A model generated the notes under the pieces. It saw only the letters and a program-made list of their open reading frames with translations. It was not told where the DNA came from and ran no database searches. Source: Clostridia bacterium (lineage in GTDB: Bacteria; Bacillota; Clostridia; Oscillospirales; Acutalibacteraceae). From it: a stretch of 51,241 nucleotides of DNA. Made by a program: the position numbers and the translations under genes. Below are positions 5,237-48,301 of this stretch, piece by piece. How positions within the stretch are numbered: the stretch's first letter is position 1; each line of letters begins with the position of its first letter. The stretch lies in NCBI GenBank assembly GCA_017454485.1, contig JAFTCX010000064.1:1-51241 (forward strand), in the 5' to 3' direction.

Positions 5237-6631
5237 ATGGCAGATTATCCGGTTTCGGCGTTCGGCGCAAAGGGCGACGGAACAAGCAACGACACGTTGG
5301 CGATCCAGCGCGCGCTGGACCAATGCTTTGAAAACGGCGGCGGCCGCGTGATTCTTGAAAGCGGGCACACCTATGATTGCAACTCGCTGTTTTTGCGCAA
5401 AAATGTTGATCTGCACCTTGAAAAAGGCGCGATTTTGAAAGCGACGAGCGACCTTGCGGGCTATGTGCGCCCGAACGAACAGATCAACGACCCGAAAACG
5501 GCGCTGATCGGCAACCCTGTGACGGGCAAGCCCAGTTTTGTGTTCCTTTACGGACTTGGTGCGGACGGCTGCAGCATCAGCGGCGAGGGCACGATCGACG
5601 CGAACGGGGGCGCGTTTTTGCGCAGAAAAGACCGCTATTATGTCACCGGCGATTTTTATCCGCGCCCGACAACGATCTATGTGGAGCACAGCAACCACAT
5701 CACGTTTCGTGATTTCACCGTTGTGGGCGCGCCGTTTTGGACGCTGCATCCCGCCGGCTGCGACGATGTGCTCATTGACCGCATCCGCATCCTCAACGAT
5801 CTGGACGCCGCAAACTCCGACGGCATTGACCCCGACCACTGCTCCAATGTGCGCATCCTCGGCTGCCACATCGTGTGCGCCGACGACTGCATTTGTTTGA
5901 AAACGAGCAAGGGCAACGCGGAATACGGCCCGTGCAAAAACATTGTCATTGACGGCTGCACATTGACCTCCACCTCCGCCGCAATCAAGATCGGCACCGA
6001 GGGCGTGGGCGATTTTCGCAATGTACTTGTGTCAAACTGCGTCATCAGCCGTTCCAATCGCGGACTTTCCATCCAGATTCGTGACGGCGGCAATGTGGAA
6101 AATGTCAGCTTCAGCAACATCTCTATCGAAACGCGGCGCTTTTGCCCCGATTGGTGGGGCACGGCGGAGCCGATTGTGCTCACCTCGTTCAACCGCGACG
6201 AAAACACAAACAGCGGCACGATCAAAAACATCCGCTTTTTTAATGTGACAACGAGCGGCGAAAACGGCGTGCTCCTGCACGGCGGCAAAGCGGCAAAAAT
6301 TTCGGACGTCACCTTCGACCACTGCCGCGTGCATGTGACAAAAACAAGCAAGTGGCCGTGCGGTTTGTATGATCTGCGCCCGTGTCTGGAATTCGGGGTA
6401 GAAAAAAGCACCAACGCGGCGTTTTTCCTGCGCGGGTGCAAAAATGTTTCGATTGAAAATTCCACCGCTTCCTTCGGGAATCTGTGCGAAGATTACAAGC
6501 ACGCGATTGACGCCGAGGATGTGGAAGGTCTGACGCTGCTGCGTTTTGACGGGAAGGCGGCAAACGGCGAAGAAGCGGTGAAACTTTCGCATTGTGCACT
6601 TTCGCACTGCGAAAGCGCACAATGCGAATAA
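5237..6631 (+). CDS. glycoside hydrolase family 28 (polygalacturonase-like)
   Basis: A 464-residue right-handed beta-helix enzyme of family GH28, which hydrolyses galacturonan or rhamnogalacturonan links in pectin by inversion. It starts with the typical SAFGAKGDGTSNDT motif. The catalytic aspartates are in NSDGIDPD (about 193-200) and CADDC (about 214-218), followed by AIKIGTEG, which takes the place of the classical GHG segment. There is no signal peptide, so it should be intracellular and act on imported pectic oligosaccharides. ATG 5237 follows GGGAGG by 6 bases. The last ~14 residues (LSHCALSHCESAQCE) look unnatural: they are encoded by an inverted repeat, and the stop codon merges into a GGAATTC heptad array. 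The original C-terminus may have been replaced. Confidence 0.88.
   Translation: MADYPVSAFGAKGDGTSNDTLAIQRALDQCFENGGGRVILESGHTYDCNSLFLRKNVDLHLEKGAILKATSDLAGYVRPNEQINDPKTALIGNPVTGKPSFVFLYGLGADGCSISGEGTIDANGGAFLRRKDRYYVTGDFYPRPTTIYVEHSNHITFRDFTVVGAPFWTLHPAGCDDVLIDRIRILNDLDAANSDGIDPDHCSNVRILGCHIVCADDCICLKTSKGNAEYGPCKNIVIDGCTLTSTSAAIKIGTEGVGDFRNVLVSNCVISRSNRGLSIQIRDGGNVENVSFSNISIETRRFCPDWWGTAEPIVLTSFNRDENTNSGTIKNIRFFNVTTSGENGVLLHGGKAAKISDVTFDHCRVHVTKTSKWPCGLYDLRPCLEFGVEKSTNAAFFLRGCKNVSIENSTASFGNLCEDYKHAIDAEDVEGLTLLRFDGKAANGEEAVKLSHCALSHCESAQCE
6586..6629. repeat. inverted repeat inside the 3' end of the GH28 gene
   Basis: A 12-base arm TTCGCATTGTGC near the start and its complement GCACAATGCGAA at the end, with an inner TTTCGC/GCGAAA pair. 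It encodes the odd Cys/His/Ser-rich C-terminal tail and runs straight into the heptad array. Confidence 0.75.
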
Positions 6632-6673
6632 TTCGGAATTCGGAATGCGGAATTCGGAATTGCGGTCGCGGGG
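6631..6673 (+). repeat. GGAATTC heptad array with GCGGTCGCGGGG tail (left copy of an inverted pair)
   Basis: About five 7-bp units (GGAATTC/GGAATGC) followed by GCGGTCGCGGGG. The same sequence occurs in inverted orientation at 7480-7524, so the two copies bound an ~0.9-kb segment carrying the leader RNA and the DUF1273-like gene. Confidence 0.85.
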
Positions 6674-6772
6674 CAGGGTACGGTTCCTTTTCCGTTCGCG
6701 CCGCGACTGGCACGGGATGAAACGGTTTTTGCCCGATGATTGTTGAAAGAATCTTTTATGGGAAAATTGTTT

Positions 6773-6802
6773 TTGTGCTTGCTTTTTTATGAAAAGTATG
6801 AT
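6773..6802 (+). promoter_or_regulatory. probable promoter of the rod-like leader RNA
   Basis: TATGAT (6797-6802) preceded at 18 bases by a weak TTGTGC (6773-6778). It would start transcription at about 6810, just at the foot of the 21-bp inverted repeat. Confidence 0.5.
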
Positions 6803-6810
6803 AAAGTGAA

Positions 6811-7009
6811 AATACCACACAAAAAATTTCATAGAGGTGTTTTGCCAACGCGCTTTTTCAAAGTGTAAACCATGTTTTTTCTTTTGAAAAAACATGGACT
6901 TCATGATTTCGCGGTTTGCATTTTGTAAAGCGTATGAAATTTTTTGTGTGGTAGCAAAACGAAGTTTGTGTTTTTCGTGTGTGCAGGCTTCGGTTTGCAC
7001 ACACTTTTT
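6811..7009 (+). ncRNA. structured leader RNA (6S-like rod) with intrinsic terminator
   Basis: A ~200-nt region that folds into a long rod. The closing stem is a perfect 21-bp pair (6813-6833 with 6933-6953). Next comes a bubble (about 10 x 13 nt), then a stem around GCCAACGCG and CGCGGTTTGC. The tip is a hairpin at 6870-6897 built on CCATGTTTTTTC and its complement. A terminator hairpin (6977-6985 with 6996-7004, then T5) follows. The Shine-Dalgarno of the next gene starts only 7 bases after the terminator, and I see no promoter between them. The RNA is therefore either a cis-acting attenuator/riboswitch-type leader or a free small RNA with leaky termination. The closing stem, central bubble and terminal stem resemble 6S RNA, but I see no family-specific sequence that settles it. 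The 5' arm CACACAAA can also pair with TTTGTGT at 6964 and GTGTGTG at 6977, so alternative folds are possible. Confidence 0.6.
6977..7009 (+). terminator. intrinsic terminator of the leader RNA
   Basis: A 9-bp stem GTGTGTGCA/TGCACACAC with a 10-base loop, followed by TTTTT. It lies directly in front of GGAGG at 7016 and so can control expression of the DUF1273-like gene by readthrough. Confidence 0.85.
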
Positions 7010-7028
7010 ATTTTCGGAGGAATGCAAG

Positions 7029-7394
7029 ATGGAAAAAACAAAAATCGCCTGTCTGAGCAAGCGCAAAGTCATCAAACGAAACGATCAATTTGAGCTGATT
7101 CTGCGGCGCTATCCCACATCGCATCTGGCCGTGGGCGTCAATTCGCCGCAAGAGGTTGCGTTGGCGGAGCAGCTGCTGGCGCTGAAAGAGACTGCGCCGG
7201 ATTTGTTCATTGAATGCGTTTTAGCATATGAAACCGTTGCAAACGATTGGGACGAACCGTTGCGCGACCGGTTTTTCAGCGTGATGGAGCGCTGCGACAA
7301 AGAAACCATGCTGCAAACGCAGTTCACTGCAGACAGCTTAAACAAGATGGAGGAATATCTCAAAAAAGATGCCGATATCATCTTTGTGTTTTAA
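7029..7394 (+). CDS. degenerate SLOG/DUF1273 (YpsA-like) protein
   Basis: A 121-residue protein with GGAGG 8 bases before the ATG. The order of elements matches DUF1273/YpsA proteins of the SLOG nucleotide-binding superfamily. There is an acidic helix (PQEVALAEQLLALKETAP), a strand/loop with WDEPLRDRFFSVMERCD at the family W-x-E-x-x-R-x-R site, TADSLNKMEEYL in place of the usual T-x-x-C-x-x-R-N-R-Y, and a final strand ADIIFVF. The N-terminal glycine-rich ligand loops (TGHR and SGGALGxD) are missing: the matching stretch reads CLSKRKV and VGVNSPQE. Nucleotide binding may therefore be lost. It has no promoter of its own beyond the structured leader, and its stop codon touches a perfect 16-bp inverted repeat. 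The family call is an inference from motif order. No function is assigned. Confidence 0.6.
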   Translation: MEKTKIACLSKRKVIKRNDQFELILRRYPTSHLAVGVNSPQEVALAEQLLALKETAPDLFIECVLAYETVANDWDEPLRDRFFSVMERCDKETMLQTQFTADSLNKMEEYLKKDADIIFVF

Positions 7395-7430
7395 TCAATC
7401 AGGGGCGGCCATAAGCCGCCCCTGATTGAT
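7394..7430. terminator. perfect 16-bp inverted repeat after the DUF1273-like gene
   Basis: ATCAATCAGGGGCGGC, a 5-base loop, then its exact complement ending at 7430, starting in the stop codon. No U-run follows on either strand, so it may act as a 3' stabiliser or barrier between the convergent ilvN and DUF1273-like genes rather than as a classical terminator. Confidence 0.6.
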
Positions 7431-7479
7431 CGGTTCGGAAACCTTCGTCGCGGGAAGCACGCGCTTTCCACACATCATT

Positions 7480-7524
7480 CCCCCGCGACCGCAATTCCGA
7501 ATTCCGAATTCCGCATTCCGCATT
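7480..7524 (-). repeat. GGAATTC heptad array with GCGGTCGCGGGG tail (right, inverted copy)
   Basis: Inverted counterpart of 6631-6673. On the minus strand it begins in the ilvN stop codon (TAATGCGGAATGCGG), continues as GGAATTC units and ends with GCGGTCGCGGGG. Confidence 0.85.
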
Positions 7525-8020
7525 AAGCCTGCTTTGCCAGCGCTGCGCTGCCGCGCTGCAGCGCAACGATGCCCGTGCGGCACATCTCAAGGATGCCGAG
7601 CGGCCGCAACACGTCGATAAACGCCTGAATCTTGTTCGGTTCGCCCGTGACCTCGATCATGATCGCGTCGGTGGAATAATCGATGATCTTGCCGCGGTAA
7701 ACGTCGGCGGCGGTCATGACCTCGCTGCGTGTGGCGGCGCTGTTTTTCACCTTCACCAGCAGCAGCTCGCGCTCCACGGAATCGCCGCTTTCCAAAAGCT
7801 GCACCTGCCGGACGTTGTGCAGCTTTTTGAGCTGATTGATGATCTGCGTGCGGCTGTATTCGTCGCCCTGCATGGTGATCGTGATGCGCGAATAATCGGG
7901 GTTTTCCGTTTCGCCCACGGTCAGTGTGTCAATATTGAAGCCCCGGCGCATGATCAGACCCGCCACGCGGGTCAGCACGCCGTATTTGTTCTCTACATAA
8001 ACTGCGATCACATTGCGCAT
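7523..8020 (-). CDS. ilvN: acetolactate synthase small (regulatory) subunit
   Basis: A 165-residue regulatory subunit of acetohydroxyacid synthase, which carries valine feedback inhibition of the first common step of branched-chain amino acid synthesis. An ACT domain occupies about residues 3-75 (VYVENKYGVLTRVAGLIMRRGFNI, with the N-terminal loop that binds valine), followed by the C-terminal subunit domain (ELLLVKVKN ... GKIIDYSTDAIMIEVTG). The ATG follows GGAGG. The gene lies 13 bp downstream of ilvB in the T-box operon. Its stop codon is also the first triplet of the inverted heptad array, so transcription runs directly into the repeat. Confidence 0.95.
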   Translation of the reverse strand: MRNVIAVYVENKYGVLTRVAGLIMRRGFNIDTLTVGETENPDYSRITITMQGDEYSRTQIINQLKKLHNVRQVQLLESGDSVERELLLVKVKNSAATRSEVMTAADVYRGKIIDYSTDAIMIEVTGEPNKIQAFIDVLRPLGILEMCRTGIVALQRGSAALAKQA

Positions 8021-9760: not shown

Positions 9761-10015
9761 AAAAAGGCTCCCGTCTCTCAAAGAGACGAAAGAGCCGTTG
9801 TTCTTCCGCGGTACCACTCTTTTTCGGCCAAAGGCCGCACTCGGGCGCTGACACGCCTTGCTCTGTAACGGGAGCGCCCGTTTGCAGCTACATCTATTCC
9901 CTGCAACCGCTCTGCGGCGACTTCGGTTCGGCCTTTTCAATGCCTTGCAGCAACCGGCATCTCTCTGAGAAAAGCACCCGAACGTACTCCTCCGCTTCCT
10001 CGCGTTTTCATGTTT
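9761..10015 (-). promoter_or_regulatory. T-box leader of ilvBN, specifier probably GUC (Val)
   Basis: Minus-strand leader with the diagnostic T-box sequence AGAGTGGTACCGCGG (9806-9820) ahead of an intrinsic terminator (9761-9796, stem GGCTC..CGTCTCT/AGAGACG..GAGCC, then T5). Stem I shows AGAGAG and GGTTGCTGCAAGG distal elements. In the specifier loop AGTA faces GAA, flanked by the helices GCGG/CCGC and GTTCGG/CCGAAC. The triplet after GAA is GTC (9919-9921), a valine codon followed by a purine. Uncharged tRNA-Val would stabilise the antiterminator and turn ilvBN on. T-box identity is secure; the specifier reading is by hand. Confidence 0.92.
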
Positions 10016-28699: not shown

Positions 28700-28876
28700 T
28701 GATGCTTGCAGGAGATGCGCATTTGCGCGACCGAAGGAGTCAAACTCTCAGGTGTCGGCAGCCAAGCAGCCGACCGGACTGTAAGCGGACGGAACTTTGG
28801 AGAAGCTGCGTTTTTTGCAGTGCCGAAGGTGAAAGCGCCTCGCGTGAATCTCTCAGGCAAAAGGACAAAGTTGGTT
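28700..28876 (+). promoter_or_regulatory. tandem glycine riboswitch
   Basis: Two successive glycine aptamers. The first shows ACCGAAGGAGTC and AACTCTCAGG (to about 28752) and is joined to the second at CGGACTGT. The second shows TGCCGAAGGTG, AATCTCTCAGGC and the hallmark AAAAGGACAAAG ending near 28871. They sit in the 5' leader of a sodium/alanine-glycine symporter gene. A downstream terminator hairpin (28938-28965) supplies an expression platform. For a transporter leader, high glycine more likely switches importer synthesis off, though the direction cannot be read here with certainty. Confidence 0.92.
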
Positions 28877-28937
28877 TTTCTTGCGCCGCTGCCCGTTTCG
28901 GGCGGTTTTCGGCGTGATGAAATCGCTTTTGTTTGAG

Positions 28938-31834: not shown

Positions 31835-31870
31835 GAAGGGATAAAGGGAATGAGGGATTAAGGGATTGAG
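31835..31870 (+). repeat. GGGATTA-type heptad/octad array after the GPx stop
   Basis: Four GGG runs spaced by five bases (GGGATAAA, GGGAATGA, GGGATTAA, GGGATTGA), beginning right after the stop codon. This is a G-quadruplex-capable pattern. The inverted partner lies at 31974-32055, and the pair bounds a ~100-bp piece holding the terminator. Confidence 0.85.
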
Positions 31871-31887
31871 TTTCTCTTCCGAACGTA

Positions 31888-31921
31888 AAAAAGAACTGTG
31901 AAGTGATCGCAGTTCTTTTTT
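31888..31921. terminator. bidirectional terminator between GPx and queH
   Basis: AGAACTG/CAGTTCT stem flanked by an A-run on the left and a T-run on the right, so it can terminate both convergent genes. Confidence 0.75.
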
Positions 31922-31973
31922 GTTATATGTGATGCATTTGACCGATCCCGGCGCACGCAAACTCAATTGATTT

Positions 31974-32055
31974 CCTTAATCACTTATTCTCTTAATCACT
32001 TAATCACTTAATCCCTTAATCCCTCAATCCCTCAATCCCTTAATCCCTCATCCCC
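31974..32055 (-). repeat. GGGATTA/GTGATTA heptad/octad array overlapping the end of queH
   Basis: On the minus strand seven GGG runs with ~5-base gaps (GGGATTAA, GGGATTGA) degrade into GTGATTAA and GAGAATAA units. The array starts within queH and supplies its last codons and stop. Confidence 0.88.
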
Positions 32056-32751: not shown

Positions 32752-32763
32752 GCATTCAATAAA

Positions 32764-32850
32764 TGTTACAGGGGTGCTACGGCTGAGATCACTGCTAAGT
32801 GAAACCCAACCTGATCCGGATAATGCCGGCGTAGGGACGTAATGAAACGC
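32764..32850 (+). promoter_or_regulatory. TPP riboswitch (THI element)
   Basis: The canonical thi-box is visible: ACAGGGGTGCT, GGCTGAGATCAC, ACCCAACCTGATCCGG, ATAATGCCGGCGTAGGGA. It lies 60 bp ahead of thiT; TPP binding should repress expression of the thiamine transporter. Confidence 0.97.
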
Positions 32851-32910
32851 CTTGTGATGTTTAGAATTCACGGGCGTGTTTTTTTCGCCCAAAAAGAAAG
32901 GAAGATTCTC

Positions 32911-33577: not shown

Positions 33578-33606
33578 TTGACAAAAGAAATGATCTATGA
33601 TACAGT
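33578..33606 (+). promoter_or_regulatory. promoter of the second rod-like leader RNA
   Basis: TTGACA (33578-33583), 17-base spacer, TACAGT (33601-33606). The predicted start falls at the foot of the 17-bp inverted repeat at 33610. Confidence 0.7.
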
Positions 33607-33609
33607 ATA

Positions 33610-33798
33610 GTTGCCAAACAAAGTTCAGCTATATAGCTTGACTTTTCCTTTCAGTTTAATATTAAAACAACGGGTGCTCTTTTTGTAAAAAAGTGCAGCC
33701 CGCTTCCCGTTGTTTTGTATTAAACGATCGAAAAGGAAGAACTTTGTTTGGCGACAAAGGGATGCACTTTTCATGCGTCCTTTTGGGCGCATTTTTTT
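33610..33798 (+). ncRNA. second structured leader RNA (long rod) with intrinsic terminator
   Basis: The transcript from the promoter above folds into a nearly continuous rod. The closing stem is GTTGCCAAACAAAGTTC (33610-33626) with GAACTTTGTTTGGCGAC (33739-33755), 17 bp with one wobble. A one-sided bulge follows that includes the palindrome AGCTATATAGCT. Next come stem CTTTTC/GAAAAG, a small loop, and a stem of ~19 bp (33654-33674 with 33706-33725) ending in ACAACGGG/CCCGTTGT. The tip is TGC-T-CTTTTT/AAAAAG-T-GCA. AAAAGTGCA (33689-33697) is also fully complementary to TGCACTTTT (33763-33771), just before the terminator hairpin (33773-33798). That gives a possible pseudoknot or antiterminator. 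No promoter lies between this RNA and the next gene. No similarity in sequence to the rod at 6811 is apparent, only in design. Confidence 0.6.
33773..33798 (+). terminator. intrinsic terminator of the second leader RNA
   Basis: ATGCGTCC-TTTT-GGGCGCAT followed by seven T, ending about 20 bases before the Shine-Dalgarno GGAAGGAGG of the lipoprotein gene. Confidence 0.88.
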
Positions 33799-33834: not shown

Positions 33835-34242
33835 ATGGCAAGAAAAACTTCAGCAATCAATAAAAGCCTTTTGTTTTTACTGTCAATCATCCTTTTATTT
33901 ACGCTTTCAAGCTGTAAATCAAAGCCAAATCCCGTTCAGCAAGCACTTCAAGGAAGATGGGTGTATGGTTGGAACGCAAGTGCCATAGGGGTAGACTATT
34001 ATAAAATGTATGAGTTTACCGAAAGCGGTGTGACCCATCTTTTCATTCGCGATGATGGAAATGGTATTGTAGAAGAAGACCATGGCACTTATAAAATTAC
34101 AAAAGACGCTATCATTCTCACATTCGAAGGAAAAAGTCAAGTACAAATGGACTATACTTTTGAGAACGGTAGCTTAAAACTTACAGTACACAGAGGCTCT
34201 GTTGAAGAGAACTATGTAAAAATGAACAATGAACAGGAGTAA
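33835..34242 (+). CDS. small lipoprotein, lipocalin-like
   Basis: A 135-residue exported lipoprotein: signal sequence with lipobox LSSC (Cys at about residue 27), then a ~105-residue domain. It starts with a G-R-W motif (LQGRWVYGWNA) and continues in alternating strands (YKMYEFTESG, HGTYKITKDAIILTFE, MDYTFENGSLKLTVH). The pattern recalls lipocalin-like/DUF5640 beta-barrels that bind small hydrophobic ligands. That is inference from the GxW start and the strand pattern. AT-rich compared with flanking genes, suggesting acquisition. GGAAGGAGG precedes the ATG. Expressed behind the second leader RNA and followed after 6 bp by a membrane-protein gene. Confidence 0.75.
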   Translation: MARKTSAINKSLLFLLSIILLFTLSSCKSKPNPVQQALQGRWVYGWNASAIGVDYYKMYEFTESGVTHLFIRDDGNGIVEEDHGTYKITKDAIILTFEGKSQVQMDYTFENGSLKLTVHRGSVEENYVKMNNEQE

Positions 34243-34728: not shown

Positions 34729-34760
34729 ATTCCACATTCCACACTCCAAATTCCACATTG
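34729..34760. repeat. ATTCCAC-type heptad array
   Basis: About four 7-bp units (ATTCCAC, ATTCCAC, ACTCCAA, ATTCCAC) squeezed between two terminators. This is a third sequence variant of the heptad repeats in this window. Confidence 0.8.
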
Positions 34761-35799: not shown

Positions 35800-35932
35800 T
35801 ATTTTGTGCAACAGAAAAGCCCTTTCTCCAAACCGAAGAAAGGGCACAGTAAGACAACTTATTGCGCAGTCTCCTCGGCAGGCGGCAAAAGCCTTTCAGT
35901 TAAAACACCTGCTGTCTTTGGTGAACAGCTTG
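35800..35932 (-). promoter_or_regulatory. ribosomal protein L10 leader
   Basis: Untranslated leader of rplJ with a conserved purine-rich kink-turn type region (ACTGAAAGGCTTTTGCCG, GAGGAGACTGCGCAATAA). It ends in a hairpin GCCCTTTCT/AGAAAGGGC (35819-35845) followed by TTTTC, an attenuator. L10 or L10-L12 binding is expected to repress rplJL. Confidence 0.85.
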
Positions 35933-35935
35933 ATT

Positions 35936-35964
35936 ATTATACCGCATCGCGTTGGCGATGTCAA
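35936..35964 (-). promoter_or_regulatory. promoter of rplJL
   Basis: Minus strand TTGACA (35959-35964), 17-base spacer, TATAAT (35936-35941): full consensus. Confidence 0.88.
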
Positions 35965-48110: not shown

Positions 48111-48154
<44 letters not shown>

Positions 48155-48274
48155 CAAAAAGCAATGCTTTTCATGATTTTCCCGCGAAAACAACGAGTTT
48201 CGGTTGAATCGTTCGTCGATGATATGAGCGGAGTTGCTTTAACATTTTTGGCGCATCGCCGCAGGCGGCGCCCC
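48155..48274. other. intervening segment of the short inverted-repeat element
   Basis: About 120 bp between the two arms, upstream of the ECF gene. It has no open frame and no recognised RNA motif, only a GC-rich hairpin (GCGCATCGCCGCAGGCGGCGCC) near the right arm. The whole 48112-48301 unit looks like a miniature version of the 0.9-kb repeat-bounded unit at 6631-7524. Confidence 0.5.
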
Positions 48275-48301
48275 ACAATTCCGAATTCCGAATTCCGCAT
48301 T
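48275..48301 (-). repeat. GGAATTC heptad array (right, inverted arm)
   Basis: On the minus strand TTAATGCGGAATTCGG, GGAATTCGG, GGAATTGTGGGG. It starts at the last T of the pnp terminator. Confidence 0.85.

Follow-up and report, generated by a model that had tools for sequence, protein, structure and literature searches.

A putative leader-RNA family of the class Clostridia in front of a degenerate YpsA-type gene and many unrelated genes

How is a gene controlled that encodes a degenerate YpsA/SLOG-type protein and lies directly behind a long, rod-like RNA, and do RNA and protein belong together? The locus is part of the window, a 51,241-nt stretch of DNA from Clostridia bacterium (GCA_017454485.1, contig JAFTCX010000064.1), to the forward strand of which all coordinates refer. 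A direct reading of positions 6631-7524 had proposed a mobile unit, framed by inverted heptad repeats, in which a structured RNA is coupled to a SLOG-type sensor. All four parts, the promoter, the rod-like RNA, the terminator and the degenerate YpsA/SLOG gene, were found at 6779-7394 (Table 1), and the picture of a structured RNA with its own promoter and with a terminator before a degenerate SLOG-type gene stands, but neither the partnership with SLOG proteins nor the mobile framing does. Sequence comparison suggests that the RNA at 6813-7008 is probably a member of an unlisted family of leader RNAs in the class Clostridia that acts as transcription attenuator. The genes under control of this family would, by the same comparison, likely be many and unrelated, most of them encoding secreted, lipoprotein or membrane proteins, with the YpsA-like gene as one among them.

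A recurrent RNA in front of exported and membrane proteins

The RNA is as large and structured as the original prediction had it: copy 1 folds at -79.8 kcal/mol, shuffled sequences at -44.0 kcal/mol (standard deviation 4.25; z -8.4). The perfect 21-bp stem closing the rod, the terminator, the Shine-Dalgarno sequence and the 121-residue open reading frame (ORF) were likewise recovered. BLAST within the own genome revealed another copy (C90:28522-28689) before the gene of a BspA-type leucine-rich-repeat protein, and a DNA search of the genus at E <= 0.01 hit 22 of 34 genomes, the own one counted; at least three of the 22 (G013, G027, G028) have marginal, probably spurious matches only. The covariance model R1 was made from 22 aligned and folded copies, in whose common fold at least one sequence is changed on both sides in 15 of the 36 predicted pairs. 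R1 matches 141 of 398 genomes of the family, covering 57 of 135 genera, 125 of 394 genomes in the order sample and 73 of 291 in the class sample; in the phylum sample, which doubles as specificity control, it matches the own genome only (1/249). These samples overlap, and copy numbers per genome are lower bounds; several genomes of the class sample have at least nine copies. The own genome searched alone gave eleven matches at E <= 0.01, two of them opposite-strand echoes, so that nine remain. A second copy within the window was reported by the window search and is missing from the genome-wide list, and low-scoring reverse-strand matches in the window were left out as echoes of palindromic rods. 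The covariance search proposed with the original prediction has led to an RNA family across Clostridia that is not specific to SLOG genes.

Flanking sequences were examined for 125 distinct copies, 84 from the family and 41 from the same class outside the order; the latter had no part in R1. These 125 are the better-scoring part of the matches listed, and seven weaker copies of the own genome were counted apart. How constant is the position of the RNA? Upstream, the -10 element ends 5 nt before the first RNA nucleotide in 110 of 121 copies, and a promoter score reached by 0.5% of letter shuffles is attained by 96 of the 121. A generic promoter scan found none at copy 1 at its threshold; it is this comparison, with its extended -10 at fixed distance, that bears out the promoter originally read from the sequence. 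Downstream, a co-directional ORF with Shine-Dalgarno sequence follows within 250 nt in 112 of 125 cases (76/84 family, 36/41 class-wide), and the start codon lies 15-25 nt past the last modelled U in 67 of them (45/84 and 22/41). As control, the same rule was applied to the opposite strand in the region upstream of each RNA, where it yields ORFs in 52 of 125 cases (34/84 and 18/41) and none of 125 at 15-25 nt. Since 15-25 nt leave no space for another promoter and the -10 element keeps a fixed distance, the 5' end of the transcript should lie at the foot of the closing helix P1, so that the terminator has to be passed before the gene is reached. A leader 5' of a co-directional gene and an intrinsic terminator before that gene, two elements expected of an attenuator, are present. 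As originally claimed, the RNA very probably governs the YpsA-like gene, the start codon of which lies only 20 nt past the end of RNA copy 1.

Which proteins are encoded behind the RNA? Two sets of downstream proteins, 74 and 35 in number and cut at 300 residues where longer, were scanned with Pfam; no domain is common to them, and most families have one member. The commonest domain is BspA-type LRR_5 (11/74 and 11/35), followed by SHOCT (9/74 and 1/35). An N-terminal hydrophobic segment is present in 78 of 108 downstream proteins and in 52 of 270 other ORFs of the same loci (Fisher p 5e-22), according to a simple hydropathy rule that indicates export or membrane insertion only roughly and does not predict signal peptides; background ORFs had at least 120 residues, downstream ORFs at least 60. 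In a search for defence families four were hit among the 74 proteins, each by a single protein (best E 6e-8), and in NCBIfam an anti-phage phosphoesterase model was listed for three of the 74.

Leader copies can also stand in tandem, four at locus L016 and three at locus L106. The three at L106 share one promoter sequence, and a Shine-Dalgarno sequence and ATG come after each of them, although behind the first and second no more than a short remnant of an ORF is left. At four further loci (L018, L019, L022, L033) a conserved, probably structured stretch (GGGTGCCGGCAG-like) lies between the leader and an ABC-transporter-like gene; it had no Rfam match at L019 and L033.

Competing helices of the leader

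How could such a leader control the gene behind it? P1, P2 and P3 each pair better within than between molecules, in both subtypes of the RNA (A and B), and in P1 both sides are changed in 7 of 15 pairs counted in the family. In the alignments, P1, centre:tail and terminator together have 95.1% of cells paired and a covariation of 0.270, with 0.136 after shuffling (0/500 as high), and P1 with P3 reaches 0.344 versus 0.123 (0/500). The centre, the strand 3' of the apical hairpin that belongs to P3, is in addition complementary to the 3' tail of the RNA. With fixed alignment columns the cognate centre:tail duplex has -16.3 kcal/mol and permuted combinations -12.2 kcal/mol (z -9.1 for subtype A, -5.1 for B and -11.7 together; 0/5000 permutations as low in each case). 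Two other versions of this test exist. The earliest parser misplaced some tails, and 16 of 2000 permutations were as low for subtype B; a later one (0/5000), run on 73 unique pairs from 81 RNAs after one RNA had been dropped, selected the centre that best fitted the own tail, which favours the cognate pair. The fixed-column test, which makes no such choice, is the one relied on.

The tail in turn is complementary to the 5' arm of the terminator (T5) with its loop (z -7.4 for A, -6.3 for B and -11.4 together; 0/2000 permutations each), and in the 41 class-wide RNAs none of 5000 permutations was as low. The tail:T5 duplex of copy 2 has -18.2 kcal/mol, and in the 22-row genus alignment this helix is 86.9% paired, compared with at most 58% when slid. 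The cognate-versus-permuted test therefore supports a mutually exclusive antiterminator, for which the column covariation within the genus is weak. The multi-copy alignment had been fitted to the R1 structure, which includes P1, P3 and the terminator and neither of the tail helices. Two other antiterminators, formed by the terminator 3' arm with the P3 5' arm (z 0.2 for A, -1.2 for B) or with the 3' arm of P1 (z -2.1 for A, -0.7 for B), were rejected, as neither has a clear cognate excess.

Comparison of the copies thus shows, at the level of sequence, the family, the conservation of its promoter and terminator, the distance at which the gene follows and the cognate complementarity of four helices, and the chain of P3, centre:tail, tail:T5 and terminator is by its pairing potential an attenuator design. 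Probably, transcription starts at the foot of the long rod P1-P2-P3, and the centre then either stays in P3 or pairs with the tail. As long as P3 holds the centre, the unoccupied tail would engage T5 and the terminator loop, the antiterminator would form and the gene would be read. When the centre takes the tail, the terminator would form instead and transcription would stop before the Shine-Dalgarno sequence. Transcription itself, helix switching in vivo, the way in which the switch turns and a ligand, a protein or a physical signal as trigger are inferred, as is the end of the chain on which the signal acts.

Several observations weigh against control by such an attenuator. Of the 112 ORFs, 45 start outside the 15-25 nt interval, at 27-244 nt, and behind 13 of the 125 RNAs the rule used detects no ORF at all, a number that is an upper bound as at least one of these RNAs sits at a contig end. 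Behind the seven weaker copies of the own genome ORFs begin at 22, 22, 29, 47, 133 and 158 nt, and one copy has none. The antiterminator helix covaries weakly in the 22-row genus alignment (0.303 versus 0.270, 18/500 shuffles as high), and the permutation tests remove relatedness only in part. Moreover, the minimum-energy fold holds the terminator in copy 1 and the tail:T5 pairing in copy 2, so that energy alone leaves the default state undecided. Finally, the downstream genes share no function that would point to a ligand among the 109 proteins scanned.

Alternatively, the RNA could be a stand-alone small RNA acting in trans, the gene being read only by leakage and owing its position to co-copying of promoter, RNA and ribosome-binding site. 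Promoter and terminator are indeed complete, the tail sequence is conserved across copies, the tandem copies at L016 and L106 have no full gene between them, and up to 13 of the 125 RNAs lack an ORF. This explanation is nevertheless unlikely, as it does not account for start codons at 15-25 nt in 67 of 125 cases with none in the control, nor for the strong bias of the downstream genes to exported and membrane proteins, and a stand-alone RNA would not need a tail complementary to the arm of its own terminator.

Table 1. Features of the two leader copies and their surroundings in the window
Feature	Position	Strand	Evidence or remark
Promoter copy 1: TTGCTT, 17-nt spacer, extended -10 TGA-TAAAGT	6779..6807	+	sequence; -10 spacing common to copies
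Leader RNA copy 1	6813..7008	+	model R1, 150.7 bits; among the 22 sequences R1 was built from
P1 5' arm, partner 6933-6953	6813..6833	+	perfect 21 bp
P3 5' arm, apical hairpin, partner 6886-6897	6870..6881	+	inverted repeat I9; P3 covariation
Centre strand, predicted to pair with P3 5' arm or tail	6888..6902	+	covariation; cognate-versus-permuted duplex tests
P1 3' arm	6933..6953	+	perfect 21-bp stem
Tail	6960..6976	+	6961-6975 with centre 6888-6902, or 6960-6969 with terminator 5' arm and loop 6983-6992
Intrinsic terminator with U-run	6977..7009	+	terminator scan (6977-7004); covariation
Degenerate YpsA/SLOG-type protein, 121 aa	7029..7394	+	PF06908, 25.3 bits; GGAGG at 7016-7020
Inverted repeat I8 3' of YpsA-like gene, possible terminator	7394..7430	+	perfect 16 bp
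Heptad array and hairpin, dispersed repeat, kept outside RNA unit	6629..6712	.	repeat search, folding
Hairpin and heptad array, inverted orientation, dispersed repeat, kept outside RNA unit	7440..7525	.	repeat search, folding
Promoter copy 2: TTGACA, 17-nt spacer, extended -10 TGA-TACAGT	33578..33606	+	sequence
Leader RNA copy 2, divergent	33612..33796	+	R1, 47.3 bits; centre 33687-33701, tail 33759-33771
Lipoprotein-like ORF, 135 aa, 3' of copy 2	33835..34242	+	-

Heptad arrays, gene exchange and the YpsA-type protein

Is the locus a mobile unit bounded by its repeats? The inverted arrays with the tail GCGGTCGCGGGG, on which this proposal had been founded, are present (6629-6673 and 7481-7525, 45 nt, 93% complementary), but that they frame one unit was not confirmed. 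The 906-base locus, used as query, has 151 matches in the own genome, of which almost every one concerns the array ends, and the arrays are therefore a dispersed repeat; each array end folds as a hairpin of its own. Arrays lie on both sides of only three of the nine own-genome RNA copies examined, to which the copy at 33612 does not belong. Moreover, the metagenome-assembled genome RUG13829, a sister species, has the orthologous locus in the same order (pectinase-like gene, RNA, YpsA-like gene, ilvN-like gene) without the left array: its left side has a short AATTCGC-like stretch lacking the GCGGTCGCGGGG tail, its right side one heptad. The mobile SLOG unit and its heptad boundary were therefore rejected. 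In RUG13829 a ~120-nt insertion with inverted ends follows the YpsA-like gene (locus L039, ~2040-2165), which the window lacks. Further heptad or octad arrays lie in the window at 1903-1944, 31836-32048, 34729-34759 and 48111-48301, two of them forming inverted pairs ~100-150 nt apart. The heptad arrays of the window resemble the short tandemly repeated heptamers of cyanobacteria; a literature search on heptad repeats found nothing related.

Between window and RUG13829 sequence identity amounts to 98.9% in the YpsA-like gene, to 88% in the RNA, where there are 23 gap positions, and to 89.5% and 88.8% in the two long BLAST matches of the flanks. A gene more alike than its flanks hints at recent exchange. 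At the rpoC site of these two sister species (loci L071 and L121) promoter and RNA are 91.6% identical and the gene body behind them differs, the encoded proteins having a similar N-terminal signal-like segment and a C-terminal FFQRIIQW..DLFARLF in common, as in a gene-body swap. By these alignments genes behind the RNA are exchanged; that the arrays are the agent of exchange is not supported.

Could RNA and gene then be a mobile or repeat cassette, perhaps moved by the heptads, that has no regulatory role at all? The multiple RNA copies, the three copies framed on both sides, the high identity of the YpsA-like gene and the rpoC site with its same RNA before different gene bodies would fit. 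We consider this improbable, still more so than a stand-alone RNA, because six of the nine own copies are unframed and the sister locus has no such left array, a co-directional ORF follows 112 of 125 copies, and the covariation of the switch helices implies that the RNA structure is under selection. Furthermore, searches of phage records gave no match to the RNA, and no viral contig had the exact pattern of one subtype.

How degenerate is the YpsA-type protein, and is it a specific partner of the RNA? Against Pfam YpsA (PF06908) it scores 25.3 bits, just under the curated cut-off of 27.7, and the match spans profile positions 44-132 of 168 (protein residues 34-120). Thus, the middle part of the protein fits the profile and both domain ends are absent, as the original prediction of a degenerate SLOG pattern would have it, and the protein falls short of membership in PF06908, which takes a score above the cut-off over the whole domain. 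In a PDB sequence search the top rows were designed TIM barrels, YpsA itself (2nx2) appearing only at E 0.11. Relatives of YpsA occur in 36 of 398 family genomes, own genome included. Elsewhere they are longer, several with a GHRP-like N-terminus, and stand without the RNA: at 29 loci in other genomes the RNA is absent within ~1.5 kb, bar one partial 19-bit match. The co-occurrence proposed as a check of the partnership was therefore convincing at none of the 29 loci, and as the RNA also precedes many unrelated proteins, a specific partnership of RNA and SLOG protein was rejected. Relatives of other genera at loci L182, L183 and L184 likewise lack the usual N-terminal GHRP-type motif, and a degenerate YpsA branch therefore exists apart from the RNA.

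Known leaders and the place of the family

Does the RNA belong to a known class? Rfam 15 at gathering score, applied to the window and 24 loci, left it unmatched and returned only tRNA, signal recognition particle RNA, T-box, glycine and thiamine pyrophosphate (TPP) riboswitches and the L10 leader; three loci searched at E <= 0.05 gave no match to the RNA either, and relaxed thresholds on the window produced 19 low-scoring matches, none above gathering score. The Rfam elements of the window are a T-box at 9779-10009 upstream of an ilvB-like gene, a glycine riboswitch at 28787-28878, a TPP riboswitch at 32760-32855 and an L10 leader at 35804-35939. That the rod is the 6S RNA of this genus, as its shape, its ~190 nt and its own promoter and terminator might suggest, can practically be dismissed, since no RF00013 match was found in the own genome (assembly 87% complete) or at the RNA loci scanned with Rfam, where the positions of both RNAs were not compared individually, and since RF00013 matched once each in 28 of 39 genomes searched, whereas the leader RNA is multi-copy.

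No description of the family was found in the literature searched, which did not cover the 3161 candidates of PMC8040213. The closest candidate is the SLH motif, a riboswitch candidate that, according to PMC6429828, is a leader RNA found in Clostridia among others and tied to surface proteins, ~60% of its copies preceding genes with SLH domains. Behind the RNA described here an SLH domain (PF00395) occurs in one of 35 class-wide proteins and does not appear in the list for the other 74, which gives 25 of 60 families, counted on proteins cut at 300 residues, so that its genes are not mainly SLH-domain genes. The comparison of the two covers gene association and not consensus structure, and they may be identical.

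The type of mechanism is already known. Like T-box and riboswitch leaders, the RNA is a structured leader before different genes of one genome, with competing terminator and antiterminator and with the terminator just 5' of the ribosome-binding site; unlike them, it has no Rfam match, its putative target genes share no pathway, and P3, centre and tail form an exclusive chain. The family itself, being unmatched in Rfam 15, is apparently uncatalogued. It is conceivable, if somewhat short of probable, that it constitutes a new riboswitch-like class, present over Clostridia in many copies per genome, whose members respond to a single signal related to the envelope, be it a small molecule, an RNA-binding protein or export status, and by strand exchange between P3, tail and terminator switch numerous exported and membrane proteins that are otherwise unrelated. 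The chain of four exclusive helices would be simple to test in vitro. If the attenuator reading is true, the RNA would be a common regulatory RNA of Clostridia, present in between about one quarter and one third of the sampled genomes of class, order and family and so far uncatalogued. It would then define a regulon of surface and membrane proteins that includes many orphans, and provide a direct route to their common signal.

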